Assembly: GCF_032854445.1 (NCBI RefSeq) | Contig: NC_088302.1 | Coordinates: forward strand, 22,827,788-22,891,787 | Length of the DNA stretch: 64,000 nucleotides | Direction: 5' to 3' | DNA from: Liolophura sinensis | Lineage: Eukaryota; Mollusca; Polyplacophora; Chitonida; Chitonidae | Shown here: positions 7,695-36,885 of the stretch, in pieces | How positions within the stretch are numbered: the first letter of the stretch is position 1 | Layout of the letters: each line of letters opens with the position of its first letter | The notes under the pieces: model-generated | What the model was told of the DNA's origin: nothing | What the model saw: only the letters and a program-made list of their open reading frames with translations | Databases searched by the model: none | Made by a program: the position numbers and the translations under genes

Positions 7695-7800
7695 TATTCA
7701 TTTTATTTGATTGGTGTTTTACGCCGCACTTAGGAGAATTTCACTTATCCGACGGCGGCCAGCATCATCGGGTATAGATCATGCAGGTAAAACCGATGAC
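7695..7800 (-). mobile_element. Old 5'-truncated SINE-A fragment
   Basis: Tail-first copy: TTTGATTGGTGTTTTACGCC, then TTTCACTTAT.CGACGGCGGCCAGCAT, then a decayed body. It is the reverse complement of the SINE-A 3' half. Confidence 0.75.
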
Positions 7801-15279: not shown

Positions 15280-17651
15280 CGGAATACGCCAATTCCCAAA
15301 CAATATAGGTGGATTGAAATAATTACCAACATTGACTGAATTTTAGTTATTACCAATAAAATTACTTTCTAAGTCTAATGTTATAATTAAAATTAAAAAC
15401 TTATTGAACAGCGGTTGAATTAGACCGCTAAAATTAAAATTAAAGTTTAGGGTAAAATAATTTGCCAGCAGTTACCACATGCTTAGAAAAATTTCACACT
15501 GGAGGTAATTTTTCTCTCTCAACATTTAGAATTTGTCTATTTCGCTGACGGAGAACAGGTTTTCGTGTTTGGGCACCGAGAACCATTAAATACCAATGAA
15601 ATTCTTTTTAAAAAAAATGCTCGTGGTTGCAAAACATGGATATAAATAGTGCACATCCAGAATCTGGTGCCCTTTAAGGAGAACTGTTTGTCACAGCGGT
15701 GTGGGCGTGGTGGGTGCGTGGTGGAGAGGAAGGAAGGGGGGGGGGAGGGGGGAAAGGGTTTTGGCAGTAAGGCGCCGCCGGACTAGTTCTCCAAAGCCTA
15801 GTTATTAGACAACGTTCACCGCCCAGGCCAATCAGTGGTGCACAGGGATTAAGATGTGGGGGATTACCTCCTGAGGAGAGATCTGGGTATATTAAAGGAT
15901 AGGCAGTAAATCATAGCTTACAAATGAACCAAATGGTCCTGGGGGAAACAACGACTTTAAACACTACTTTGGACCACACATAACAGGCCTATGACAGCCA
16001 GTATACGGCTATCATATAGGTAGGTACGTGTATAGCTACGTGATTCATCTACTCGTGTCATAAACTCGCAAATCTAGCTTATTGATTTGTGTTTAATATA
16101 CAAAATATTTCAAGTTACTTTTTGTCCAAAAATGTGAGTATTAAGTGGATGAATTTTGCCTCGTTGATCATAGATTGCTTAATCACCGGATCCACTTCAG
16201 ATCTATGCTAAAAAGAATATTAACAGTTCTTATTTTTCAAAGGTATGTATATAATGAGGATGCTGCGCTGAGAAGTTTGAATACTGTTCAGTTATTCATC
16301 GATTGATAAATGATAAATAGTTATCATAGGATTTTGATAGGAAGATGATACTATTTATGGTATTCAAATTGCACTGCGCATTATCCTACATCTATAAGGT
16401 TATATCGAAAGATTTGTAGAATAATATGAAAACAAGAGCCAATAATTGCAACATACAACAAAAATGCGATCTGGTTTTTCATCCATGACATTTGTTAAGT
16501 GTACGGCCAATGTTAAAGAAAGAATGTACCAAAAAAAAACCAAAAAATAAAAAACCACTGACACAGACAGAGCGATTTACAGAGCAGTTTGTTGCAGCTA
16601 ATAGGCATGTTAGGCCAGATGTAACAAATAGCGTAACAAATAACAGATGTGACATTACACACTGTGAAAAACAAGTGTGATCAGTTACAATAATCCTGAC
16701 ATTTCTCTTTTGTATAAAGGTGAAGTAAACGTGAAAACTGTATAGATCTGCATGTTTCCACAGCTGTGTTCGAGACCGCGGAGGGCGTGTCGCCTACTAC
16801 ACGTTTTTGGTACTACATGTACTACATTTAAAGTGTCTTTTGACTAAAATGACTTGTTCCCCACGTGTACAGGTGTAGTTTTTAAATTGTGTATATATGT
16901 CATTTTATTACATATACCGTCTTTTCTGTCAAGAAAAGACACAGGATCAAAAGGCTAAAGTGTTGTCCAGTTTCATTGTTTCAAGAGAACATGCAAGGAC
17001 TTGAATTTTTGCTGACTATTTAAAAATGATTTAAAAAACTTACTCAAATGGAAAATCATGACCCAGTCTAAATAACTTTTTAAATTTGTTCACAAATGTC
17101 TTACTTTTACCTGTATCTAGTCCATAATAATTACCCCATATTGCTCTAGAGAGTGGCGTCAGTCAATCAACATGTAGGCCTATGGGGCTATAGGACTCTC
17201 ATTTCGTTTTTGTAAATTACTGTGGGATGGTATAATATACATTTGATGCGTTGCGCAAATAGTCTTATATATATAGGCCTAATTACACAAATTTGCTTAC
17301 TCTCTCATCGGAAACAAGCTGTGTATAAAATTTTTAAATATGGCAATGATGTAAAATTTGTTTTGTTTTCAGGCTATCAAATTCTGATCATATCATTTCG
17401 AGAAAAGTGTTGAACCAAAGCCCACCATTTTCGTCTGCATGGATTTGTCACAGAAATGACTGATGCTTGATGAATGTGATTCCTGTGTGAAGTATTAAAT
17501 ACGTGGGATTCTAAAGCCTGCATACATTGGGCAATACTGACTGACCTGGAATTCGGTGAAGTGCACTTTCCAAAGACAGGAAGTTGGCTTAATCGCCAGA
17601 GACGTAAATAACAGGCAGGGTAGTCAATTACAAGATCTTGCGGTTTTTCCG
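15280..17651. other. Upstream region of protocadherin A; no gene seen
   Basis: Contains a G-rich tract at about 15735-15762 (G10, G6 and GGG runs) that could form a G-quadruplex. No clear TATA box or start site can be assigned for Pcdh-A. The frame of exon 1 is open back to about 17556 without an ATG, so this short part is presumably 5'UTR. Confidence 0.5.
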
Positions 17652-20249
17652 ATGGCTTGTAGGTTGTGTTTTATTTGTGCGGCTGTTTTGATACGGTACG
17701 CGAATGCCCAGCCCATTCAGTTATCTGTGAAAGAGAACCAGCCGAGTGGAACCTCGGTAGGGTTTGTCACGCGTGGAGCCGGCTTCCTGGACATACTTGA
17801 TCTGTCACAGAAGACCGACCTCAGGTACAAAATCTTAACCCAGGGAAATCCGTGGAAGGAATTTTTCACAGTAAACCAGGGAACTGGAGAAATTAGCACC
17901 GCTGCTGTGCTGGACCGTGAAGCTTTGTGTCCGGATCAACAAGCAATATGTCAAGCGGATATAGATGTCGCTGCTCACTCGGAAACCTTCCTTCGCCTTT
18001 TCCGAGTTGAGTTGACTGTTGTAGACATCAATGACAATGCCCCGGAATTTTCTGAATCGGAAGTGACTGTTAGCATACCGGAATCAGCGCCTATCGGTTT
18101 TAATGTACCCATCAGAGGAGCCACTGACAAAGACACCGGTAAGTCCCACGGTGTCCAGAAATACGAGATTTTCCCAGCGGACGGTCAATTCACTGTCAGT
18201 GTAATCGAAAACTTGGACGGCTCGCCTGAAGTGGGAATTGTGGTTGGCCAGAAGCTGGACAGAGAGCTCATGTCATCTCACTCGGTGGAAATTCTGGCTA
18301 AAGATGGCGGTGTTCCTCCGAGGACAGGAACCGTTAAGGTGACAATTCTGGTGACAGACGCCAACGACCATTCTCCCACGTTTAGTCGATCTGTGTACAA
18401 CATCAGTGTTCTGGAAAACCTCCCCGTGAACACCAGTATCATCCAGGTGAAAGCCACAGACAGAGACACCGGAGTAAACGGCAAAATCAGTTACCGATTC
18501 AGCCCAAGAACAGTCTCCAAATTTCCGAACTTCTTTGTCACTGATGCTGCCTCGGGAAAAATTCTACTGAAAGATACGTTAGATTTCGAAGCTAGGAGAG
18601 AATACCGTTTGGTCGTGGAAGCCACTGATGAAGGGAACCCGCGGCAGACTTCGCAGGCGTTGGTAATCGTTAACGTCCAGGATGTGAACGACAACGTCCC
18701 CGTTGTCAGCTTTAACTTTCTGTCCGACAGAAACGAAGCAGAAGTATCCGAAAGCAGCCAAGTGGACGACTTTGTTGCCCATATTTCGGTGTCTGATCGT
18801 GATCAGGGTCTGAACTCCGACGTCGACTGCCGGACAACGTCAGATGCTTTCAAAATTGAGTGGCTGTACGACAATGAGTTCCAGGTGATGTTGAACACCA
18901 CACTGGATCGAGAACTGATATCAGAGATTAATGTTACGGTGAAGTGTACTGACAAAGGTAATCTCCCTCTGAGCGACACTAGAACATTCAAGGTGATAGT
19001 TCTGGATGAAAATGACAATAGCCCCTATTTTGTCGAGCCTGAATATACGGTTACAATTCGAGAAGATCTACCCATAGGGGAGGAAGTTATAACCCTGTTA
19101 GCTTCAGACGCGGACCCCACAGAGAACGGCAAGGTCAGGTACTTCTTGATCGGAGAAAACAAGGACTTCTTTTCTGTTAACCCAGACTCCGGTAGGATAG
19201 AAGTGTCGCAGGCTCTGGATTACGAATCGAAGAGGCAGATGACGGTGATGGTTGAAGCACGAGACGGAGGTAACCCTTATCGTAATTCATCCGCAGTCAT
19301 CGAAGTGACGATTTTGGATGTTAATGACGAGGCACCGGAGTTCAACCAAACAACGTACGAGTTTTATTTGAAAGAAAACAGTACAAAGGGCGCTTATGTG
19401 GGACAGGTAGCCGCTTCCGATCCAGATAAAAACTATGGTGGGCTCGTGACTTACTCTTTGAGAGAGGAACGCTCTGTTATTCCTGCCTTCTCAATTTCCG
19501 CCAATGGCGTTATCACGACCTTGCGGCCATTAGACAGGGAGACAACTTCTGACGTCACGATAACCGCCATAGCCGCTGACATCAATAGATCTTCGCAAAT
19601 CTCCTCGGCTGAAGTGACGATTCGACTCCTTGATATCAATGACAATAGACCCGTTATAATGTTCCCAAACGACATCAACAATACAGTAGTTTTATCTACA
19701 GATCTTCAATACAGCACTGTACCAATAGCCACAGTCCTGGCACAGGACGCCGACTTCGGAGAAAACAAAGCTCTTGTGTATGAAATGGAGAACGAAGATC
19801 TTCGCCATACTTTCCGTGTAGATTCAGAGAACGGAAGCATCTGGCTCGTGAATAAGGGAGAGAACTTTGAAGGACGAACATACACCATTGACATCCTGGT
19901 CAGAGACCGTGGAAACCCACCACTGGAAGATGTCACCCGTTTGTTTGTCGTCTTCCCTCTTGGCAGTTCGTCTGAAATCTCAGACATTGCCTCTAATGTG
20001 ACAACAGTTATCATCGTAATCTGCATCACCACACTTTTGTCGATTCTGATACTGATTGGGATATGCATCGTCAGGAGATCCACTCCCAAACCGCCTCGGC
20101 AAGGAGCGATAACTACTGACTCTTTTGGGTACAACGTAAAAGTGGAAGCTTCGCAGAATGTCGATGTGGCCAACAAATCTGTGAATGAGAACATTGAGAA
20201 CAAGGCCAATCTGATACTTGCTGATGATACTCTGCTACAAAAATCTGAG
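17652..20249 (+). CDS. Protocadherin A exon 1: signal peptide, EC1-EC7, transmembrane helix, proximal tail
   Basis: This exon encodes residues 1-866. A signal peptide covers about 1-20 (MACRLC start, hydrophobic core, cleavage near ANA-QP). EC boundaries are marked by calcium-binding linkers: DINDNAPEF at 125, DANDHSPTF at 236, DVNDN at 344, DENDNSPYF at 452, DVNDEAPEF at 556 and DINDN at 661. EC7 runs to about 777 and lacks a final DxND linker, as expected next to the membrane. EC1 has the protocadherin-type cysteine pair (CPDQQAIC, about residues 95-102). LDRE/DRE and DxD calcium motifs recur in the repeats. The transmembrane helix is about 784-807 (TVIIVICITTLLSILILIGI) followed by RR. One intronless exon for the whole ectodomain is typical of protocadherins. 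The donor is GAG|GTACAA. Unspliced, the frame would add five codons (VQFPL) and stop. Confidence 0.95.
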
Positions 20250-22850
20250 GTACAATTCCCTCTTTGATTTCACTTGATATATTTCATTTTTAATGATAAA
20301 GTAGAACGCAGATATACGATATTTAAAGACTAGCATTGTTGCTCAAGTAAAATACGGTTTTACAGCCTAGTTTTTAAAAAAAGATATATTGAAATATCCA
20401 ACAGACGAATATAAATATATTTAATATTTAATGTGTGCTTTATATTACAGACTTGCTCTCCCCTGAGACTGACATCCGACAGCCCCATCGATGTCTTCAC
20501 GCTCTCGCAACACGGACACACGGGAGTCTGGCTCAACTACTCAAGGAAGAATGAGGTAAGACTTAAAACTGTTTTCTTGTATAATACGACGAAGTTGGAC
20601 ACTTATCCCTGAATTCAGTTTTGTTGTTTTTCGCAACAAGATGTGTATCTAAGCGTATAAAGTCGGTGTTCTTCGGCATAACTGATTATGTGTAATTACT
20701 GCAAAATTCACCGTTACTTTAGGCCTGGCGTTTAAGCTTCGCGGCAAATAACATATTCAGCGTCTCAAGAAGTCACGCCAAATAGGAGAGTCACTGAGTT
20801 GTGAAGTGGCATCTTCTAGAAAAACTGAGACGACCATTTTTCTGTTCCGCTTAAACCCATGGCGTGGAGTGCATGTACTGATCAAAGCCAAATCAGATTT
20901 ATGTCTTGGACAAGGTTTAATCATAATGCATTATACACACAGCCTGGTGCACTTAATCTGTTTCCTGTATACATATTACCATATCCTAATCACTGGCTTA
21001 AAGTTAATACCTACTCGTTAAACGTGGATTAATCTTTAACCGAGATCAGCCGCGATCATCGGTGTAGCGATCAGGTAATAAGTACTTGTTTAGACCTGTC
21101 ATGTTTGGTGACATTAGCAAGGCACTGAAGACATTTCCTAATACTTACTTATTCTTTGATTCCTCGTCAATGTTCTATATACTCAACTTTTTCATTACAT
21201 TACAGAAACTTATATTTTGTCTCGGCTTCATGATTTGATTGTTAAGTGTAGAATTTCAACATTCAATGCATGTATATCAGAACGCCAACTTTAATCGCCT
21301 GTACGGTATTGCACGAATGCAGGTTTGCCATGCGATGCACATGTTACGCCCTTAATCACGATTGATTTATTCATTCATTTATTTATTTATTTGCTAGCTT
21401 AAACTATCTTGTCAGAAATTAAACCCGCAATGCGGATGTGCGGAGCAGATCAGACGACTCGCTAAGACGTCATTTCACGCCTACGCAAGCCGGTTCCAAG
21501 CTGTGTAAAAACACACATTCTCTGCTGTAATTACGTTGAAGTGCTCGCGGCCTAAAACTTTGCTTTTCCAGCACAATGATACACGAACAGTTACTTAATA
21601 CAGAAAAGATTAATAGAGAACGGCCTTTGGATCGACATGTGTAAGGATTTCTCATGTTCTCCATTTTGAAACCTCTCAGAAACTAATCATACTTACACAC
21701 AGACATTTTATCCACTGATAAGATCTGATCTAGTATATTTGTACCTTACAGCATCTCATCCCACGGACGTCCAGCACGAACAGTCGCTTCACAGCGAAGA
21801 GTTTTAGTCAGATGTCCCTGGAGACGATGGCCAGTGACAGTGGGCGGGGAGTGAGTGAGGCGGACAGCCAGGAAAACATCAACAGCCACCAAGGTAAGCA
21901 CAATCGATCACATTTCTGTTTGCTTTTATCCGCATGAGTAGGCCTCCACATCTTTGTGCAATGAGGTGCGACTTCCCGTTCAAACTGAAATGACCATTGG
22001 TCTTTTGTAATGCATTGTGAAGGCAGGGGTGAACAACAGATCAGGACCGAATTACATTAAGCTAGAGAGGTTCTTCTGTACCCTTTAACACCACGCAGGA
22101 AACGTCGGCACGACGGCCACGACGAGGATGCAATGAATGGATGAATGAATGAAGTTTCACTCCACAATGGCAGTATTTCAGCCATACATCGTGTCGAGAC
22201 TGAAACAGCAACAGGCACAAGGAGAAACTCAATGAACTTGTTACTTAAGGAATATCTGTTTAAGAAATAATAATATTAGAAATTTGAAAGTTTTTCAAAG
22301 TGTTTTAACTGGTTTTGGAAGTGAATTATCCATTTATCCATTTGGAACACACCGTCATGGTGTACGAGTGGTCATACATTTTGTCCATGTAATGGGTGTT
22401 TATTTTATCTCTTCAGATCACACCATCCAAGAATCAACAAACACCAGCAAAACAGAATGTCCAGAAGGAGACTACATGGATATGCAGAGGTCTTGTTTAT
22501 CCTCAATTTCTACTTTACCAGAAAACGGACGGATGTACAGCAACTTTCACAATCACCGTCAAACTTCATCGCACGCTTCTTGTCACACTTCCGTTCACAA
22601 CCCCTCGTCTGCTAGGCAGTCGATATTCAAAGGGAGTAACGTCGACCCACCATTCCATATTCCCATGAAGAACAACGCCACAATAGACAATTACCGAAAA
22701 GGGCATCTAGCTAAACATTCTAAACACACCGTAGGCGATGGGACAGAGTATGTCAGACAGTCAAGTCATTCAGACAGTGATGATGGTGCAACAACAACAT
22801 CTGGCAGTTATACTGTCGACTTTGTAGAATGTGCTGAGTTTGATGTTTAG
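17652..22850 (+). CDS. Protocadherin A, seven EC repeats, four coding exons (gene-level CDS)
   Basis: Spliced CDS join(17652..20249, 20451..20555, 21752..21893, 22417..22850), 1092 aa. It is a type I membrane adhesion protein, by family a calcium-dependent, largely homophilic cell-recognition cadherin. The reading frame runs unbroken across all four exons, with GT-AG introns of phases 0, 0 and 1. The tail contains SDSGRG (about 929-934), YMDM (968-971) and a near-terminal ATTTSGSY motif ending at Y1080. The start is the first ATG in the open frame. Upstream codons of that frame contain no ATG, and the chosen Met begins a good signal peptide. The gene converges on a paralog 4.2 kb away that has the same exon plan. 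Seven EC repeats with short downstream cytoplasmic exons resemble delta-type protocadherins. I do not assign an ortholog. Transcript evidence could move the 5' end or add alternative exons. Confidence 0.93.
20451..20555 (+). CDS. Protocadherin A exon 2 (cytoplasmic, 35 aa)
   Basis: The acceptor is TATATTACAG and the donor GAATGAG|GTAAGA. The exon is 105 nt, phase 0 on both sides, and encodes residues 867-901 in the frame left open by exon 1. It contains TSDSPIDVF and GVWLNY. The WL near its end aligns with AKLWLHG in the matching exon of the paralog, which supports a real exon rather than a chance open stretch. It is too short to be seen as a standalone ORF. Confidence 0.85.
21752..21893 (+). 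CDS. Protocadherin A exon 3 (cytoplasmic, SDSGRG motif)
   Basis: The acceptor is GTACCTTACAG and the donor CCAAG|GTAAGC. It is 142 nt, phase 0 in and phase 1 out, encoding residues 902-948 plus the first base of codon 949. It contains MASDSGRGVSEAD (about 927-939). The paralog's exon has TSDSGRGGSEED at the same place. SDSGRG followed by acidic/serine residues resembles the conserved CM2 motif of delta-protocadherin tails; this is a match from memory of the family and no alignment was run. Confidence 0.87.
22417..22850 (+). CDS. Protocadherin A exon 4 (C-terminal cytoplasmic, YxxM and TSGSY motifs)
   Basis: The acceptor is TATCTCTTCAG and the frame continues at phase 1 to TAG. The exon encodes residues 949-1092. 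Near its start is EGDYMDMQRS, where Y968-M971 fits the YxxM consensus for the SH2 domains of the PI3-kinase p85 subunit. The paralog has EGEYVDMQRS at the same position. The end has DDGATTTSGSYTVD, also conserved in the paralog. Between these anchors the two tails are poorly conserved, rich in Ser, His and Asn, and look disordered. There is no PDZ-type C-terminus (ends EFDV). Confidence 0.93.
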
Positions 22851-27090: not shown

Positions 27091-27650
27091 TCACACGCTG
27101 GCCGTTTGGGCCTCCTGACTTTCACACTCGGACAAGTCGTCGATGCTGTAGCTGCCTGACGTTGTCGTTGCGCTGTCGTCATCAAACGTCGTCCCCGTGA
27201 CGTCACTTCTGTTCACGAGACTGTCATGTGAGCTGGTAATATCTTGTCGTCGCTGCGACCGACAGATCTGTCCGACGTCGATTTTAATGACAGGGTCTGA
27301 GAGTAGTGCACGTTTGTTGACCCCGTGTGAAGCTCTGAGGGAAAGCTGCTGACGTCTAGGAATGGGCGGAGGGGGCGAGGCAGACCCGGACCGAGCCTCC
27401 GAACTGACAGGAGACATCCGTGTGTAACCCTGGTGGTCATGCTCAGCACTATTCCCCGGTCGAGAAACCACGTTGTTGCCGTTGTCACACAGCCGTGGCG
27501 TTCTCCTCAGGATGTTGTAGTAATGCTCCGGCAATTTCCGGTTCATGTCGTTATGGTTACGTAGGGACGCCATGTAAGATAACGGCGACCTCTGCATGTC
27601 CACGTATTCACCTTCCAAACCACAATCACTCGAATTCTTCGTCAAGCATT
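27091..27650 (-). CDS. Protocadherin B exon 4 (C-terminal cytoplasmic, YxxM, proline-rich, TSGSY)
   Basis: The acceptor is TTTCAATTCCAG, continuing at phase 1 to TGA, residues 995-1180. In order it has LEGEYVDMQRS with Y1010 in a YxxM (p85 SH2-type) motif; ASPPPPIPRRQ (about 1085-1095), which fits the class II SH3-ligand pattern PxxPxR; a Ser/Arg-rich stretch; and DDDSATTTSGSYSIDD near the end. It is about 42 codons longer than the matching exon of Pcdh-A, mostly through the proline/serine/arginine section. Confidence 0.93.
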
Positions 27651-30600
27651 CTGGAATTGAAATGTAACAACAATGGTCAAAATGATTTTAATGCAATAAT
27701 AGCGGTTTGAAAATAATATAAAGACATAATTAATTTGTGTACAAATACCAAAAACAGTTATCTGCATTAACAAGATCATTAAAAAAAAGTCATGCACCAT
27801 GCACTAGCGCAGGATGACAAACACACTGATAAATATAGGCTATTACATTCACACGAACTTAAGACAAACGAGCAGTAAAATCCAACCGCCATCCAATAAA
27901 TATAAATGTCTCAAAAATATAAAATAATAATGTCACAAAAAGCCTCTAGAAATATTTTCAACACTCAAAATATCTGTTTAATATTGTCATATTCAGACGC
28001 AGAGGACTATTCACTTGATTATCATAATTTCTTGAGAGCTTAATTATAGATGCTAGAAGTCCAGACATCAGAAAGTTCTAAATGGATGGTTCAGGGGAAT
28101 CCCCTTCAAACCACAGCGAGTCTGTTCCGTTCCACGTGCATGAGTGTGTTAGTTACCGATACACTTATGAATGACTGTCTATTGAGGGTATTAGGTAGAA
28201 CTCAACAGTATGTAAATATGTTAAAAATGATTAACAACTCTTAGTGAGGTTTACTTAATAATTCAATGGGCCCGAGTCCACAAAACGATTTTTGACTTCT
28301 GTATTAAAACTAGATTTGAAGCCTTAATGTAATAGGCCTACGAAGTTTATGGCTCAAGATGTTCAAATTTCCATAAATTTGATAATATCGATAATCAAGA
28401 GGTTCTTTTTCAGTTTTAATTTTTACATTCCAAAAATAAACGTTTAAAATCACATTTCAGCTTTTGACTTAAGTCATGTTTGGCTTTGTGGAATCGCCTG
28501 TAGTAATTGCTTGTGGCGGTCGTTTTGAAGAAATAGCTCTGACATGTCCAGCACCAAGTAATTTATAATTCGTTTTTCCACAGAAGTTAGAAATGCTTGC
28601 GAAGCAGTGTACCATAACTTATGATGAGTGTTGAGTGGTAGTCAGTAACGAGGGCAGTAAATAACATTTAGTGCTAGTGACGACATAGAGGGCCCTAATA
28701 TGAGCTGACGTAAGGCTTGTGTCAGTCATCGCAGGCTTCAGCTGAGAGGGATTGCCCTGATATACTCCCTTCACCAGCTGCCGGTCAAGAGCAACATTCT
28801 TAGAAAAGCGCTTGACCTGACAAGCCCTAGCACCATTAGTAATCTGTCTACAAAGTAGCATTTTGGTCATTTTAAAGAAGAGAAACTGCGAACATTATTC
28901 AAGGTGGTTTTTCCTTTCCCTTAATTCAAGATATAGCACTTGTGCTCCGTAGATATTAGGTACATATTACAGTATCCACAACACATTTTTAAATTCTTTA
29001 TTTTTTTGTCGAGGATTCTCCACAGCCAGGGGCCACTTAGGAGTCTCCTCAAGAATATATAAACCATTTACCATTCTTAAGGATATATACAACATTTCCA
29101 TGCTATTCCCCAATTCATTCATGCGAAATAATAGTATGATATGGGAATATGATACAGGAAATATACAATATAGTTGTAAGTCACTTAGGTAGACAGGTAT
29201 TGTGGTCAGAATAAAGGATAGCTGTCTTTATCAATGTCGACTCTATGGGCAGTTGATACATAATTGTGAATATTTTCGAATATTTTTAAATTGTCGTATA
29301 ATCAAGTCATTTGAGCCAGTCAGTAATATAGATTTGATATATTTTGGACAATGCTTAAGAAAGACAGAGTGATGCACACTAGGAGAGACCGTATTTATGG
29401 ATGATTTGCATGCTCTCTACCACAACATACTCTACCTATACAATTTTCCCAAACGAGTCAAGCAAAAATGCCGAGAGTTATATCTTTACCACAAGTTATT
29501 TCCTCCATTGAGAGGGCTTGTTTGTCAACACCATGTAATTTCGAACTTCCACATCCGACAAAAACGTAAAAGTGTCTTCAAGTGAATTGATGTCAAAAAA
29601 CCCAGCACCCGTGCACAGTAGCAAAGCAGAATACATCAGCCACACTTGTAATGCAGTTGTCAGAAATGTGTAAAACAAGCTGATAGGTTGCCGTTGGCAT
29701 CGGCATCAACTCATTTTTTTTGTACATCACATGGTAAAGATATTTCTCTGACAAGGTACGGGTTAATGAGAAGCCCGGATGTGGGTTAGAAACATATTTC
29801 CGGAGATATCCGGAACTCACCGAGTACGTGCTAGTCCCATCACACATAGTGAGGGCTGAAGGCTGCGGAGAAATAAGGTAAAAGGTGCATGAGTTATTGT
29901 GGATGATTACAGGTTGAGCAGCTTAGAAACTACTTCAGTACCTTAATTCTTAACGGTTGCAAATTCAAAACTTACTTTTGGCGAAATAAAACACAGAAGG
30001 TTAAACGTACTGTGTATTATTTGTTAAATGTTATTGTTTTAACAATCCGACCCTCAACCCCATATATATGTTCTTTTAACTTTCCCCGCCCCTAATTTAT
30101 GAACAAATAAGTAATCAATACAACGCAAGATGACTTTCAGGCATGCGTGTTCAAGATAAGGACAGGTGGCAACCAAAATATTGATTACAGTCAAATTAAA
30201 AAGTGACACTGAAGCTATAGAGCAACTAAATGCATATAACACCTGTTTTTTTCCAAAGCAATGATTTCTGCCAAAAAATGTTGACAAACGTTATGTTTTA
30301 TTAGTGATATTATTTCTTTACCAGAACCATGCTGTTAGAGATGTAGAATTCCGTCGTGATTAGTATAATATATTATCCCTTTCTACAAAGGTGCAGATTT
30401 GCTAAAGCTGAGCCTTTTGCGAGCCTGGTGCTTTCACTTTCATTTTCGATACAGCCATGAGACATTAGCATTTGACAATATAAACAAGTCAGGCCGTGAG
30501 GCGTACTTGTCAGTGTTACTGGGAGCATTGCTAAGGACAACAACAAGGTGCAAGATTCAAACAAGAAATATATGGGTGAACCAGCGGAAGTGTCGTACCT

Positions 30601-33600
30601 TGCTCATCCATAGGATAATGGCGTCTGCTGTGCGCATCTTCCTCACTTCCGCCTCGCCCACTATCACTCGTCACTGTCTCTCCCGATACGTTACTGGTTT
30701 CATCATCACCCTACATCAATAGGTAGAAGTTCAGACTAGTACACACTATCCTTGTCTTACAGTGCAGATATTATAATCCTGGTTCCCGGGCTTTATATCA
30801 CTCCGAACATTGCATTTCTTCGATGTATCGAGGCTCGGGAACCAGGATGCGCTTTAGTATCCCTTTAACTGGCGCGATAACTGTTTTCCACTTTATGCTG
30901 ATTTATTTGTGTTACATGTCCCTAACTACTCTGATTAACTTCCCTCTACTAATACACAGCTGCAGACAATTAAGGTCAGGTGAAGCAGTGATGCATCTAA
31001 AAGCACAAATTGCAGGGCAGGTTTCAGATCAATAAAACTGTGTTAGAAATAGGCTTATGACTAACTAACAATACAAAAGCATTTATCGCTGGAAAATATC
31101 ATGCAATGCTTGGTTGGCAAGCAGTCAGCAAACAGTAACTACATGTATACGCTCTCCCCCCCCCGCCCCCCCACCCTTAACTCCGGATGCCCGCTCTATT
31201 TCCCGATTCCTGTGATGATGAATAACCTTACCCGGGGGCCATGCAGCCAAAGTTTGGCGCTAGCAGGGACATTATTGGGCGATATGATATTCGAGTATCC
31301 TTCTGTCTTTGTTCTTCCAGGTTCAGCTTTGGCATCCAGCCATATAAGGTTCAGAGAGTTTTGTGTCTGTAATAGCATAAATTTCTCGGTTTCTGTGACA
31401 TGCTAATAAAACTCTTGGCAAAAAACATACTTTTTCACACTGATGCACTTGAAAGAATGTAACATGGGTAAAGTTTGTTCTTTTTACAGATATACTAATT
31501 TATTTAAGAGTTTATAGTCTACGAGGCATTTATTTCGATGAAGATATGCAGCTAAATGATTAGTTGTAGCTGTGAAAAGCAAAAGTAAACTTTATAAAAA
31601 TACATAACTTTGCCAAAAAATCATGAATAACGACAAGCCAGTGTTAACGGTAAATTCGGATATGCACAAGATACAAGCTAAAAACTATTCACTTTCTCAG
31701 TATATATGATGGGAAGTACGACCAGGTGTAAACAGCATCATGCGACAATAAACAGGAATTGAAACTTATACACTTCAAAGCGGTGCCACAAAGTGAAACA
31801 ACGCAAAATTATTCATAATGTAGTCCGGACTCACCGTTAGTGACGCAGGCTGTCTGACGACGTCATGGGACGGTCGTTGTTTGTTGCCCGCCATCTTGGA
31901 TGGAGGGTCAGTTGTCGATTCTCCAGATAAAAGGCCTTGCTCGTTTTGAAACACAAAGTTAACTCCCTTTTTGGTTTTTCCATTGGTTTGGTTAGGATTT
32001 GTAGAGTGTGTTCCTGATTTGCCGTCAACGTTAACATTCACTTTAGCCTTATCTGGCTGTGTTTTGCCAGTAAATCCCGCGGACGGGTCTCTCCGGTTCT
32101 GGCGTCTGATGATGAATATGGTGATGATAATGATGACAGAAAGGAACGTGGTGGCACAAATAACGGCAATAACGATGATGAAGTTGTTTGGTAATCCGTC
32201 TGAGACCGGTGTCACGGAGCCGGAGACGTTCGTGGGCAACACAGTTACGTTGAACCGCTTCAGAGTGACTCGCTGTGGTGAGCCGTGGTCTTTGACTGAT
32301 ACCAAAAGGCTGGCAGATTCTTGAGAAATTATCGAGTCTTTGGAAGAACTGTTCAGTCTAAGAAAGATTTCTCCACTTTGCGCGTTCATCCCGAAGAGAG
32401 ATTTAGGATCACCAGCCTCAATGGCGAATGTTAGCGTCCCATTCTCGCCAGCATCCGGATCCTCAGCGACGAGTTTCACGAATGGCGTCTGTGGTGGCTG
32501 GTTGGAGTAGACAATAACTGAGCTGTTAGCAACATAAGGAAGTTGCACCATAGGTGAGTTATCATTAACATCCAGGATTTCAACTGCCACTCCGACGGTG
32601 GACGTCAAAGGGTTATCTCCCTTGTCTGTGGCAACGACGAAGAAGCGAACCATAGGGCTCTTTTCTCTGTCAATGTTCTTCGCTGTGGTAATCAGGCCGT
32701 CTTCAGAGGATACAGCAAACATCCCTGTGGATTCAGGCGTATCGCTTATTGTATAGGAAACCTTGCCTCCTAAACCCAAATCAGGGTCAGAAGCTACCAC
32801 ACTACCTATCACGGTGCCAAGTGGGCTGTTCTCCAAAACACTAAACCGGTAAAACGTTTGGTTAAATTTCGGCCGCTCGTCGTTAACGTCTACAATCATG
32901 ACGGCCACCGTGGCGTTAGTATGGCGAGGCGGTATCCCAGCGTCACTGGCCATCACCGTGAATGATATCTCCGATGTGTTCTCGTAGTCCAATTTCTGTC
33001 TTAGAGACAACATACCAGACACATTGTCTATTTTGAAAAATGAACTGTCGTTTCCATAGAGTTCGTAGGAGACTTTACCGTTTTTACCTATATCGTCATC
33101 AGTAGCATTTAGGTGAAGGACTCCTTCCCCAACAGAGGTGTTTTCCTTGAGGGTTATCACATATGAGGATAGTTTGAACTCGGGTGAATTATCGTTTTCG
33201 TCTGCCACAATCACAAGAAAATGGCCTGCCACGGTAAGCGAGGGTTTCCCTCTATCGTTGCACAGTATGGTCACATTATATTCCGATATGGTTTCGCGGT
33301 TAAGTTTCACGCCCAGGTTCACCTGAAACTCATTGTCATACAGCCTCTCAAGCTTAAACTCAGGGTTACCAATAGTACAGTTGACCTCAGCGTTCTGGCC
33401 ATTGTCTCTGTCCAGGGCTGATATGTGGGCCACAAAGTCGTTAATATTCGCGTTTTCAGAAATTATGGCGTGGTCACCTCTTGGTAAGAAATTGTACTTC
33501 AAGCTTGGTGTATTGTCGTTGGTGTCAGTGAGGTTCACTAGCACAAGAGCCTGCGCTGTGCGGGGTTGCACCCCCATATCCGCTGCTTCCACCACCAGGC

Positions 33601-34570
33601 GGTACTGCTGCTCCGTCTCATAATCCACCACGCCAACCACACGAATCTCACCCGAAGCGGTATTTATCTGGAATACATCTGAAAATTTTGCCGCGGTTCG
33701 GGTACTGAATCGGTAACTGATTTTGCCGTTTACTCCGGTATCTCTGTCTGTGGCTTTCACCTGGATGATACTGGTGTTCACGGGGAGGTTTTCCAGAACG
33801 CTGATGTTGTACACAGTCCGGCTAAACGTGGGAGAATGGTCATTTGCGTCTGTCACCAGAATTGTCACCTTAACGGTTCCTGTCCTCGGAGGAACACCGC
33901 CATCTTTAGCCAGAATTTCCACCGAGTGAGATGACATGAGCTCTCTGTCCAGCGTCCGGCCAACCACAATTCCCACTTCAGGTGAGCCGTCCAAGTTTTC
34001 GATTACACTGACAGTGAATTGACCGTCCGCTGGGAAAATCTCGTACTTTTCGACACCATGAGACTTACCGGTGTCTTTGTCAGTGGCTCCTCTGATGGGT
34101 ACTTTAAAACCGATAGGCGCTGACTCCGGTATGTTAACCGTCACTTCCGCCTTAGGGAATTCTGGGGCATTGTCATTAATGTCTTCTATTACAATTTTTA
34201 ACTTGAGAATTTTGAAAATGGCATCGGAGTGAACAGCCACATCGAAATCCTGAAAACATTCTGATGGCAGATCAGGGCATATAATTTCCCGATCCAAAAT
34301 TTCCGTCGTGTAAATTATTCCTGACACCTCCTCCATTCGGAAACTATTAATCCAAGGATTTCTCTGGCCAAAAAACATAAACTTGAGAGCGGTTCTGTTT
34401 ACGGAGGCCAGTGACTTAACGAACTGGGGGTCATTCTGAATGCTGCCAACCAATGTGCCCTTCGGTTTCTCTTCCACAACACTGAGGGTGTAAGTCTGTC
34501 CGTAAATCCCAGCAAAGAGCACACTTAATGCCAACAGTCTAAAACAAGACATTTTCATTGCTAAAGCCAT
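27091..34570 (-). CDS. Protocadherin B, seven EC repeats, four coding exons (gene-level CDS)
   Basis: Spliced CDS complement(join(27091..27650, 30599..30710, 31232..31366, 31835..34570)), 1180 aa. It is a paralog of the convergent protocadherin A with the same exon plan and the same intron phases (0, 0, 1). Introns are 468, 521 and 2948 bp. By family it is a calcium-dependent cell-cell recognition protein of the plasma membrane. The tail has SDSGRG (about 972-977), YVDM (1010-1013), a proline-rich PPPPIPRR (1087-1094) absent from the partner, and ATTTSGSY ending at Y1162. The start is the first ATG after an in-frame TGA and leads directly into a signal peptide. Later in-frame Mets at residues 5 and 7 would also give a signal peptide. 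EC2 and early EC3 are almost identical in DNA to the partner gene, while the rest is strongly diverged. Confidence 0.93.
27651..30598 (-). other. Intron 3 of protocadherin B (2948 bp)
   Basis: AT-rich with no repeat family or internal exon recognised. It is by far the longest intron of either gene; the matching intron of Pcdh-A is 523 bp. Confidence 0.75.
30599..30710 (-). CDS. Protocadherin B exon 3 (cytoplasmic, SDSGRG motif)
   Basis: The acceptor is TTGATGTAG and the donor GAGCAAG|GTACGA, phase 0 in and phase 1 out, as in the partner. It encodes residues 958-994 plus one base of codon 995. TSDSGRGGSEEDAH (about 971-984) is the shared CM2-like motif and is the clearest proof of the exon. 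Confidence 0.87.
31156..31176 (-). repeat. G-rich tract in intron 2 of protocadherin B
   Basis: The + strand has C9-G-C7-A-C3, so the pre-mRNA reads G3-U-G7-C-G9. It starts 55 nt after the exon 2 donor. The runs satisfy the G-quadruplex pattern, and such G-runs near a donor can act as splicing enhancers. Confidence 0.6.
31232..31366 (-). CDS. Protocadherin B exon 2 (cytoplasmic, 45 aa)
   Basis: On the - strand the acceptor is GCTATTACAG and the donor CCCCGG|GTAAGG. It is 135 nt, phase 0 on both sides, residues 913-957. It includes LIWLDAKAEPG and AKLWLHGPR. The last segment aligns with GVWLNYSRK of exon 2 in the partner gene. Its sequence is less conserved than exons 3 and 4, so the assignment rests on splice sites, phase, position and the WL anchor. 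Confidence 0.78.
31835..34570 (-). CDS. Protocadherin B exon 1: signal peptide, EC1-EC7, transmembrane helix, proximal tail
   Basis: This exon encodes residues 1-912. The signal peptide is about 1-24 (hydrophobic LLALSVLFAGIYG, cleavage near YGQ). EC linkers are DINDNAPEF at 130, DANDHSPTF at 241, DTNDN at 349, DENDNSPEF at 457, DVNDERPKF at 561 and DVNDN at 667. EC7 ends near 785. The EC1 cysteine pair is CPDLPSEC. The transmembrane helix is about 796-821 (rich in I, V and T), followed by RRQNRR. The cytoplasmic part in this exon, about 90 aa, is Lys/Asn/Gly-rich. The donor is ACG|GTGAGT; without splicing the frame reads 19 more codons before a stop. Asn-x-Ser/Thr glycosylation sites are numerous in the ECs. 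Confidence 0.95.
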
Positions 34571-36598
34571 AATTAAGTTTTCAAAGCACGAAGGAGACTG
34601 AAGAAAGTGTCCTCACCAACATAATGATGTCTCTCTGGCTCGGCTAGCACATCCGTCCCGTTGGGGAAATGCCCTGGTAATACACTTGTATTCAGTTTAA
34701 CTTCCCTGTCCCCTCTCAAGTGAAGTCAATGAGATCGGCAGTCAACAAAAAACGCTAGTGGACTCTGCAAATAGAGAGAAAATAAATATTTACCGAAGTG
34801 TTTGGGGAAGTGCTTAAGTTAAGCCCTGGCTTTGAAGGGCTAATCCTGAGCATCTATTCTCACCTGAGTAATCAGCACAGGTATGTCCTTTCTTAATTAC
34901 GGATAACTATCATACTGGCTTTATGTGAGGGTTAAAGCCGACCGGCATTCTAATTCACTTAAAAGGATCTCAGTCTGCCTCGACAGTCCCGACCAGCCGG
35001 GCCCGTCGGGATCATATTTGATGGCGTATAGAAGGAATACATTCCGCAGCCTTCACGTTGCCGCGAGCTCGGCAGGTGAAAGATTTACACGGGTTTAAAC
35101 TGGATCAACGTCTTCACAATTTGTGTCCCCTTGTAAGGAAACCGTCGTAATGAGACCGACTTCCTCGGGTACCTTCAGAAGGACGACATCCCGGGCGACG
35201 TGCACGCATCACTTGGCACCTAATCCGGGCGCTATCCTCTAAATGCCGTCATTATCACCTTATTTATCAAGGAACCTTACAGAACATATCTTAGTCCGTG
35301 CCGCAACAGTTAACGGTGATACATTCTGAAATGACCGGACATGTGCTACATAATTACAGCATACTGTTTGCCACCAGTGGTAAAATTCCACAACTGTTTG
35401 CTAATTTCGAGCGGAATTCCTTCGGGGCTTGGTCATTCCTCTCAGCTAATGAAGCCTGTATGGGCCATATTACCCAAACGCTGACATATCTAAGAACATC
35501 TACATTGCGAGAAATAATTAACTGACAGATCACCACAGCCACTTTTAGTGAACATTTCAAACTGATTGCATCCTTCAGTGGGAAGAAAATTTCGATATTA
35601 TTTCGCACCTCCGGACTTTCATCTGATTGATTTTAACCTCGAAATTAACAGTAAAAATATCTCACACACTCTTCATCTAATTTGCCTACCTGTAGTAGAC
35701 CTACTTACGGTCAAACCTCTCCCTAAACATTATCACAACGCTTTTTTCTGCAGCCCATGCTTTTAACGCATATTTGTATTTACATATGCATTCAGTACTC
35801 ATTCTAAAGTACGTCTTCGAAGGTTACGTCCCAGCTCCAAATTTCCACGGTTCACATGTCCTCATTCTGAAGTTCCAACCCGTCTTTCGAGCGAAGGTGT
35901 CTACACCGGCTATCTAAGGGCTACACCTCCCAATCATGTACTGTACTGCGATGTGCCTGATAACTCAGTTACACCAAAAACCCCAGCTGTATCAAAAACT
36001 ATTTACGATCTATTGAGCACAAAAGTCAGCGCATACATAAACACACTAATGAGGGGAGAGGGCTGGTAGTTTAGCCCAAGGGGAGAGGCCTGTAACGATG
36101 TCATATTGACAAGTTTCTATACCCATATGGTACACAATCTGGACAGTATTTAACCCTCAGGCAGTAGAAAAAAAATACAACAAAGAATAAAACGGAAAGG
36201 ACATCTGCTAAGAACTCCCCAGTACCAGACCATACTCACAGGTGTAAGATTCCCCCCCCCCCCCCGGGCGGTGATCGCTGGGTAACCGTCACAAAGTTCC
36301 CACCCTCCAACCTCACTGTCTAACAGGAAGGAGTAAAGTCGAAAATGGATAATATTGAGAGTGCAACAGGAACAAGAGCAATGATGAAGTGCCTGATGTA
36401 TTTGATCGCCCGCAACAATTTAAGTACTGTCATCTAACACTTTGTATATCCGTGAAAGATTTACCGTAAATGGCCATGGCACTGATTAAGAAGAGGACCT
36501 TTTACATTCAATGGCAAACAACGCCAATCAGTCATGAAACCATGCACGTGTAAAACATCCTGAGGTTAACATAACTACATTATCAAATGCTAGTCTTA
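34571..36598. other. Upstream region of protocadherin B; no gene seen
   Basis: Presumably holds the promoter and 5'UTR, but no TATA box or start site can be fixed. The segment at 34.95-35.25 kb is more CpG-rich than its surroundings. A C14 run lies at 36252-36265. Confidence 0.5.
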
Positions 36599-36606
36599 TT
36601 TCAAAC

Positions 36607-36885
36607 CAGGGGGCCTCCGTGGCTCAGTTGGTTAGCGCGCTAGCGCAGCGCGATGACCCAGCAGTCTCTCACCAATGCGGTCAACGTGAGTTCAAGCCCA
36701 GCTCATGCTGGCATCCTCTCCGGTCGTACGTGGGAAGGTCTCCCAGTAGCCTGCGGATGGTCGTGGGTTTCCCCCCTGCTCTGCCCGGTTTCCACCCACC
36801 ATAATGCTGGCCGCCCTCGTATAAGTGAAATATTCTTGAGTACGGCGTAAAACACCAATCAAATAAGTAAATGAATAAATAAATG
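36607..36885 (+). mobile_element. Full-length SINE-A with 8-bp target-site duplication
   Basis: TTTCAAAC flanks both ends (36599-36606 and 36886-36893). It has a complete tRNA-like head, GGGGGCCTCCGTGGCTCAGT then TGGTTAGCGCGC, with an A-box-like TGGCTCAGTTGG and a B-box-like GAGTTCAAGCCC. The body (CGTACGTGGGAAGGTCT, GGTCGTGGGTTTCC, ACCATAATGCTGGCCGCC) leads to the tail TATAAGTGAAATATTCTTGA, GTACGGCGTAAAACACCAAT and AAATAAATG. Best reference copy of the family in this window, 279 bp. Confidence 0.95.

Follow-up and report, generated by a model that had tools for sequence, protein, structure and literature searches.

Two convergent protocadherin genes with probably separate tail exons

The window, that is the whole analysed stretch of 64,000 nucleotides, corresponds to C8:22827788-22891787 of a 609-Mb chiton assembly with 632 contigs, which also served as the searched genome. 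It contains two large protocadherin exons, Pcdh-A and Pcdh-B (in the following A and B). The large exon of A (17541..20264, plus strand) is a stop-to-stop ORF of 908 amino acids with residue 38 as the likely start methionine. It comprises the repeats EC1-EC7, connected by linkers with six recognisable EC-linker motifs, and the beginning of the cytoplasmic tail; the signal peptide and the transmembrane (TM) segment were recognised by eye. The large exon of B (31778..34612, minus strand) is an ORF of 945 amino acids, is convergent with A, and showed by alignment the same architecture. Both proteins matched the Pfam family PF00028 (A: E 4.3e-102, 7 stretches; B: E 1.3e-106, 6 stretches), and B additionally matched Cadherin_2 at its N-terminus. 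Six to seven EC repeats, one TM segment (by eye only) and a single large ectodomain exon, as is typical of protocadherins, were thus found in both genes. In a sequence search of the PDB, the top row was CELSR1, matched in several stretches; protocadherins came next, some of them as one long alignment.

The ends of the two ORFs lie 11.5 kb apart, and the overall identity of the proteins is 48%. Judged from the sequences, A and B are old paralogs which have one younger block in common.

The cytoplasmic ends were identified from ORFs and motifs. The probable last exon of A is located at 22417..22847 (plus strand), possesses a TCTCTTCAG acceptor and encodes the motifs EGDYMDMQRS and DDGATTTSGSY. 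The ORF with the probable last exon of B (27094..27687, minus strand) encodes EGEYVDMQRS and DDSATTTSGSY; a GTGAGT donor is present in the tail of B, and no acceptor of this last exon was found with the pattern used. The last-exon ORFs of A and B are homologous to each other and separate for each gene. A motif search detected TTTSGSY exons also downstream of the genes E and F, and A, B, E and F seem to lack a shared constant cytoplasmic exon. Both tails contain a YxxM motif (YMDM in A, 22470-22490, plus strand; YVDM in B, 27590-27609, minus strand), which we take to be of the PI3K SH2-binding type, and in both the TTTSGSY motif is located near the C-terminus.

Beside the genes, the window contains a tandem array at 241-1520 (period approximately 25 bp, together with longer repeated units) and seven copies of GATTGGTGTTTTACGCCG, at 7709, 22916 and 24694 on the plus strand and at 36843, 50290, 51917 and 58410 on the minus strand. 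One of these copies has 1 mismatch, and a mean of 0.00 copies was expected. This dispersed repeat is presumably part of mollusc V-SINE (RUDI-like) elements.

A near-identical block with sharp edges

A 443-bp stretch of A (18060-18502, plus strand) and a stretch of B of the same length (33705-34147, minus strand) are identical at 424 of 443 bases. The 19 differences agree well with the approximately 20 differing sites that a sequence-only reading of this DNA had counted by eye, and the longest identical run, for which about 100 bp had been given, comprises 108 bp (18254-18361). In a slightly longer form (18023-18524 and 33683-34184, 502 nt, 93%) the pair is the longest inverted repeat listed by the repeat finder for the window, with a gap of 15,158 nt between the arms.

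The best two-changepoint fit placed the left edge of the tract in A at 18023 (2-lnL support 18021-18030) and the right edge at 18502 (18500-18502). The tract in A (18023..18502, plus strand), delimited by this fit, dS/dN and permutation, and its partner in B (33705..34184, minus strand), delimited by the inverted repeat and the changepoint fit, include the EC1-EC2 linker, the whole of EC2 and roughly the first 40% of EC3. Identity is 94.6% within the fitted tract and 48.5% outside. At the left end, 7 of 36 bases differ between 18024 and 18059 (approximately 80% identity), and this stretch may be just the conserved DINDNAPEF calcium linker; a left edge at 18060 is therefore also reasonable.

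In codon windows, the amino acid identity of A and B is 0.23-0.50 across EC1 and 0.90-1.00 from residue 177 of A through EC2, and drops sharply at 18503. For whole domains it amounts to 39% in EC1, 52% in EC4, 40% in both EC5 and EC6, 23% in EC7 and 29% in the TM/tail region, so that the fall to the similarity of distant paralogs beyond both edges, with EC1 below 45%, was correctly described before. The higher value for whole EC3 (67%) is owed to its first part, which lies in the tract.

The first coding bases beyond the right edge (18503..18533, plus strand) are not homogenised and encode a loop of EC3, which this analysis matched, at the YRF|S edge, to the Phe-X10-Phe loop. Residues 321-331 of A read SPRTVSKFPNF and their counterparts in B STRTAAKFSDV; 6 of 11 residues differ, and the second Phe is located one residue later in B. 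The tract hence omits most of this Phe-X10-Phe-type loop.

Silent sites and uniqueness of the block

Inside the block, dS is 0.132 and dN 0.018, whereas dS reaches 1.58 in the 5' flank (38% amino acid identity) and the synonymous sites are saturated in the 3' flank (41%). The sequence-only reading had named equal dS in block and flanks as an argument against homogenisation; the block value is far below that of the flanks. Between A and B, pS is 0.66 in EC1, 0.12 in EC2, 0.64 in EC3, 0.85 in EC4 and in EC5, 0.81 in EC6, 0.83 in EC7 and 0.87 in the TM/tail region, and the value for EC2 is the lowest of all pairs in the per-domain table. Where A and B have the same residue, they use the same codon at 134 of 149 positions in the tract and at 108 of 280 outside. 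The segment score was reached in 0 of 20,000 permutations; the scored segment (17934-18500) extends slightly further to the left than the changepoint fit.

The changes within the block (13 synonymous, 6 nonsynonymous; dN/dS in the tract approximately 0.14-0.15) are mostly silent, and both copies therefore appear to be functional. GC3 in the block (A 0.547, B 0.541) is only slightly raised over the EC1 and EC3-EC7 flanks (0.48-0.53) and the TM/tail region (0.475-0.505). Several events within the tract were considered and rejected, as the clustering of the differences was not significant (286 of 5000 and 731 of 5000 permutations).

A DNA search of the genome with a 504-bp stretch yielded two matches among the best candidates scored, A itself and B. 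The protein search yielded at least 131 matches at E up to 1e-5 (150 of 475 candidates were scored, and counts are lower bounds); B was 93% identical and the next best match among those scored 51%. Among the candidates scored, the block was thus seen in no further paralog of the genome, a point on which the earlier interpretation had also been made to depend. EC2 of A and EC2 of B are about equally distant from each other paralog. A pattern search of prokaryote and viral collections matched 99 and 5 stretches, respectively, none of which was confirmed as a relative.

These observations show that A and B, diverged as they are, have in common one block of nearly identical DNA with sharp edges and low synonymous divergence between saturated flanks, which is absent from the other genes searched and in which later changes were mostly silent.

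Distribution among the paralogs of the cluster

Pair tests were performed with the loci of this cluster, i.e. with 78 pairs from 13 sequences (A, B, C, three of the eleven array genes described below, E-J and fragment M); ORF K was included in the per-domain table alone. Tracts were detected in 3 of the 78 pairs, A-B, D3-D4 and D3-D6 (each 0 of 1000 permutations), and the next pair followed at 25 of 1000. A second run with 15 pairs gave 0 of 2000 permutations for A-B and for five pairs from the array, and 122-1995 of 2000 for nine controls. One of these controls, E-F, is likewise oppositely oriented but showed no tract (564 of 2000), so that opposite orientation alone is not sufficient. A protocadherin fragment (L036, C8:23285400-23286700, minus strand) with an ORF of 341 amino acids extends from EC2 into the start of EC5, aligns to residues 168-508 of A and is approximately 39-43% identical to its best-matching paralogs; no tract was detected for it in the pair test.

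The mean amino acid identity of the paralogs (ten genes, pair A-B excluded) is 0.291 in EC1, 0.374 in EC2, 0.385 in EC3, 0.381 in EC4 and 0.327 in EC5 (44 pairs each), and 0.347 in EC6 and 0.287 in EC7 (35 pairs each). The paralogs are most alike in EC2-EC4. Either EC2-EC3 do not carry the diversity of the chiton cluster, or their greater similarity eases conversion there.

Homogenisation in the adjoining alternating-strand array

A 264-kb region around the window contains 16 ORFs with a match to A or B and a length of 120 amino acids or more. According to the ORF matches, an array of eleven protocadherin ORFs on alternating strands (L012-L018; C8:22911086-22961853, window-relative 83299-134066) lies beyond the window. 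It consists of tandem units of approximately 9.8 kb, which are mostly 93-97% alike. The ORFs are shorter and align to EC1-EC5 of A; D7 is shortened to an ORF of 439 amino acids, and its match in the genome continues through one TAA. In the EC2-EC3 linker of D1-D6, D8 and D10, AVNRSP or TVNRSP is found by eye in place of DxNDNxP, and the DRE motif of EC2 reads LDK, IDK or FDK. Calcium binding at the EC2-EC3 junction of these proteins may be weakened.

The minus- and plus-strand members form two lineages with 64-70% protein similarity. Pooled pS between the minus type and the plus sets I and II, respectively, is high in EC1 (0.66 and 0.72), EC4b (0.59 and 0.56), EC5 (0.53 and 0.54) and the TM-tail region (0.53 and 0.56), lower in EC2a (0.37 and 0.37) and EC2b (0.30 and 0.07), and low in EC3 (0.11 and 0.08) and EC4a (0.10 and 0.10). 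Among the minus-strand copies themselves it is 0.02-0.09 (EC3 0.07, EC4a 0.09). Going by the sequences, the lineages are old except for EC2b-EC3-EC4a, in which they have evidently been homogenised. These data show that a like homogenisation arose independently in the array and again affected EC2-EC3.

In EC2b, the distance from the minus type is 0.30 for D2, D4 and D8 and 0.07 for D6 and D10, while in EC1 D6 and D10 remain with D2, D4 and D8 (0.06). The distances suggest at least two conversion events and, for D6/D10, a transfer from minus to plus. The simplest reading would be an older conversion of EC3, followed by a conversion of EC2 into the ancestor of D6 and D10. In the trees, the plus-strand members formed a clade with 100/100 support in EC1 (10 rows, D7 absent) and in EC4b-EC5 (11 rows), and the trees of EC2b and EC3 placed D6/D10 together with the minus type. 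Since a monophyletic plus-strand group was compatible with the AU test in both EC2b (p 0.34) and EC3 (p 0.46), the reading with two events rests on the distances and not on topology. Order and copy number in the array are less sure than the structure of A and B, because the units of approximately 9.8 kb are longer than the mean read of 8.3 kb.

Origin of the common block

It is highly probable that approximately 480 bp, comprising EC2 and the start of EC3, were copied by ectopic gene conversion between convergent protocadherins which were elsewhere already near the background distance of paralogs. The high amino acid identity in the block could also be explained by constraint, if EC2 evolved slowly in all these genes through the protein or through an overlapping DNA or RNA element. 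This explanation was rejected and is scarcely conceivable: among the compared genes pS of EC2 is low only in A-B and the array pairs (next pair 0.66), the other genome matches scored are at most 51% identical, and the window showed no Rfam match at gathering score. The dS far below that of the flanks and the best protein match of 51% after B argue for homogenisation of DNA and not for constraint on the protein, as had been proposed from the silent sites in the sequence-only reading. A common block could otherwise have been produced by collapse or a mis-join during assembly. The passages on sequencing in the publication of the Liolophura japonica assembly report 14x HiFi coverage with mean reads of 8.3 kb and a heterozygosity of 1.24% (PMC11068029), and both this coverage and the array units exceeding the mean read leave some room for such an error. 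The copies of A and B differ, however, at 4.3-5.4% of sites with silent changes in excess and lie within unlike flanks, and the window is free of N (the sole N run in the 264 kb is at window-relative 183653-183852). Collapse is unlikely because this difference exceeds the heterozygosity and because short tracts lie in different flanks, and we consider an artefact very improbable.

The sequence-only reading had also suggested that the tract could mediate an inversion of the 15-kb interval. If the inverted blocks recombined by crossover, A and B would exchange their 3' parts (EC3b to the tail exon), and the homology might be kept for such an inversion switch. The arms are indeed inverted with 15,158 nt between them, the block has the same reading frame in both genes, and an in-silico crossover resulted in open chimeras of 963 and 890 codons. 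Against this, the one assembly analysed shows one orientation, and other evidence was not found; a switch of this kind is thus also very unlikely.

With gene conversion as the preferred explanation, the inverted neighbours would exchange sequence via a fold-back or a sister-chromatid template, and exchanges in EC2/EC3 would be tolerated or favoured, if partners gain from matched contact surfaces. The position of the tracts might as well be a neutral by-product, which concerns the selective part of this explanation and not conversion itself: EC2-EC3 are more alike between paralogs (see the domain means above), and strand invasion would succeed there for no functional reason. As EC2-EC4 are the most conserved domains, conversion may start in them for want of mismatches, and the pattern, found at two loci only and absent from E-F, is too rare to show selection for the place. 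On the other hand, EC4 is equally conserved, yet in the array only its beginning is homogenised, and in A and B it is not; the differences in identity between the domains are small; and a higher identity of EC2-EC3 itself wants explaining, since the vertebrate papers call EC2-EC3, in the relevant passages, the diversified region. We give a neutral origin of the position a little less than an even chance.

Possible consequences for recognition

In work on protocadherin recognition, specificity is attributed to the contacts between EC2 and EC3, while EC1:EC4 is said to provide affinity of a non-selective kind, and the Phe-X10-Phe loop of EC3 is described as contacting EC2 (PMC5001838). If the antiparallel EC1-EC4 handshake of known protocadherins applies to the chiton proteins, an A:B heterodimer would use the contacts EC2:EC3A and EC2:EC3B, which the two homodimers already contain, and EC1:EC4 would be its sole new contact surface. 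The types of the array have EC2b as well as EC3 in common. Of the earlier interpretation, gene conversion and the contrast with vertebrates were borne out, while for common or cross-recognised partners of A and B we infer from the matched EC2 only that they may exist. Caution is appropriate here, because the tract ends at the EC3 contact loop and because A and B have seven EC repeats like PCDH1, for which the section on the interface gives EC1:EC4 contacts about twice as large as EC2:EC3 (486 vs 231 square angstroms; PMC6769022). For protocadherins with seven EC repeats, the contribution of EC2:EC3 may be smaller.

A further-reaching and rather doubtful reading is that the roles of the domains in the chiton cluster are reversed relative to vertebrates. 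Conversion would then repeatedly re-equalise EC2-EC3 between oppositely oriented neighbours and keep otherwise different receptors compatible, i.e. serve a matched-pair recognition, with diversification left to EC1, the membrane-proximal repeats and the tails. Such genes represent a natural domain swap: the two proteins of a pair agree in EC2 (or EC2-EC3) and not in EC1, EC4 and tail, so that the share of each domain in recognition can be measured directly. EC2-EC3, the diversifying specificity region according to vertebrate work, is homogenised here at two loci, which hints that the protocadherin expansions of molluscs may use these domains otherwise than vertebrates.

Comparison with known systems

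The clustered protocadherins of vertebrates (fugu, zebrafish and Xenopus) are, in the parts of the publications concerned, likewise described as clustered, with large ectodomain exons and regional homogenisation recognisable by high silent-site identity or low dS (PMC1852091, PMC4978886). The homogenised 3' parts begin in EC4 or EC5, and EC2-EC3 are, by the same sections, seldom converted (PMC1852091) or appear to lie outside gene conversion (PMC4978886), in agreement with the contrast drawn in the sequence-only reading. Vertebrate clusters thus homogenise EC4/5 to EC6, as far as these sections go, and the chiton cluster EC2-EC3; on the present sequences, the placement of conversion is reversed. 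In plain diversity the contrast is less clean than in conversion: in a passage of PMC4978886, EC3 is the least alike domain in 4 of 5 within-species averages, EC2 is not low throughout, and for many Xenopus isoforms another isoform exists with a closely matching EC2-EC3. The chiton conversion partners are located on opposite strands, unlike those of vertebrate clusters, and according to ORFs and motifs A, B, E and F each have their own tail exon, so that shared constant cytoplasmic exons of the vertebrate type were not found for these genes.

In a mollusc, the octopus, a large cluster of protocadherins contains very similar copies, which are attributed to recent duplications or gene conversions; this cluster is described as head-to-tail, in contrast to the oppositely oriented partners in the chiton, and the passages concerned assign conversion to no domain (PMC6339937). 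An earlier description of EC2-EC3 conversion in mollusc protocadherins was not found in titles and abstract starts of the open-licence literature.

Receptor pairs such as Siglec-11/Siglec-16 and those of the CEACAM1/CEACAM3 type resemble A and B, since in the sections concerned they are described as oppositely oriented, with a binding region kept alike by conversion while the rest differs (PMC5701461, PMC2832619). These pairs are immune receptors of the immunoglobulin type with opposed ITIM/ITAM-type signalling, whereas the tails of A and B share YxDM and TTTSGSY, and no opposed signalling motif (ITIM/ITAM) was seen by eye in these tails as read from ORFs and motifs. In terms of this comparison, A and B are matched in EC2 but not in EC1, the EC3 loop or EC4.
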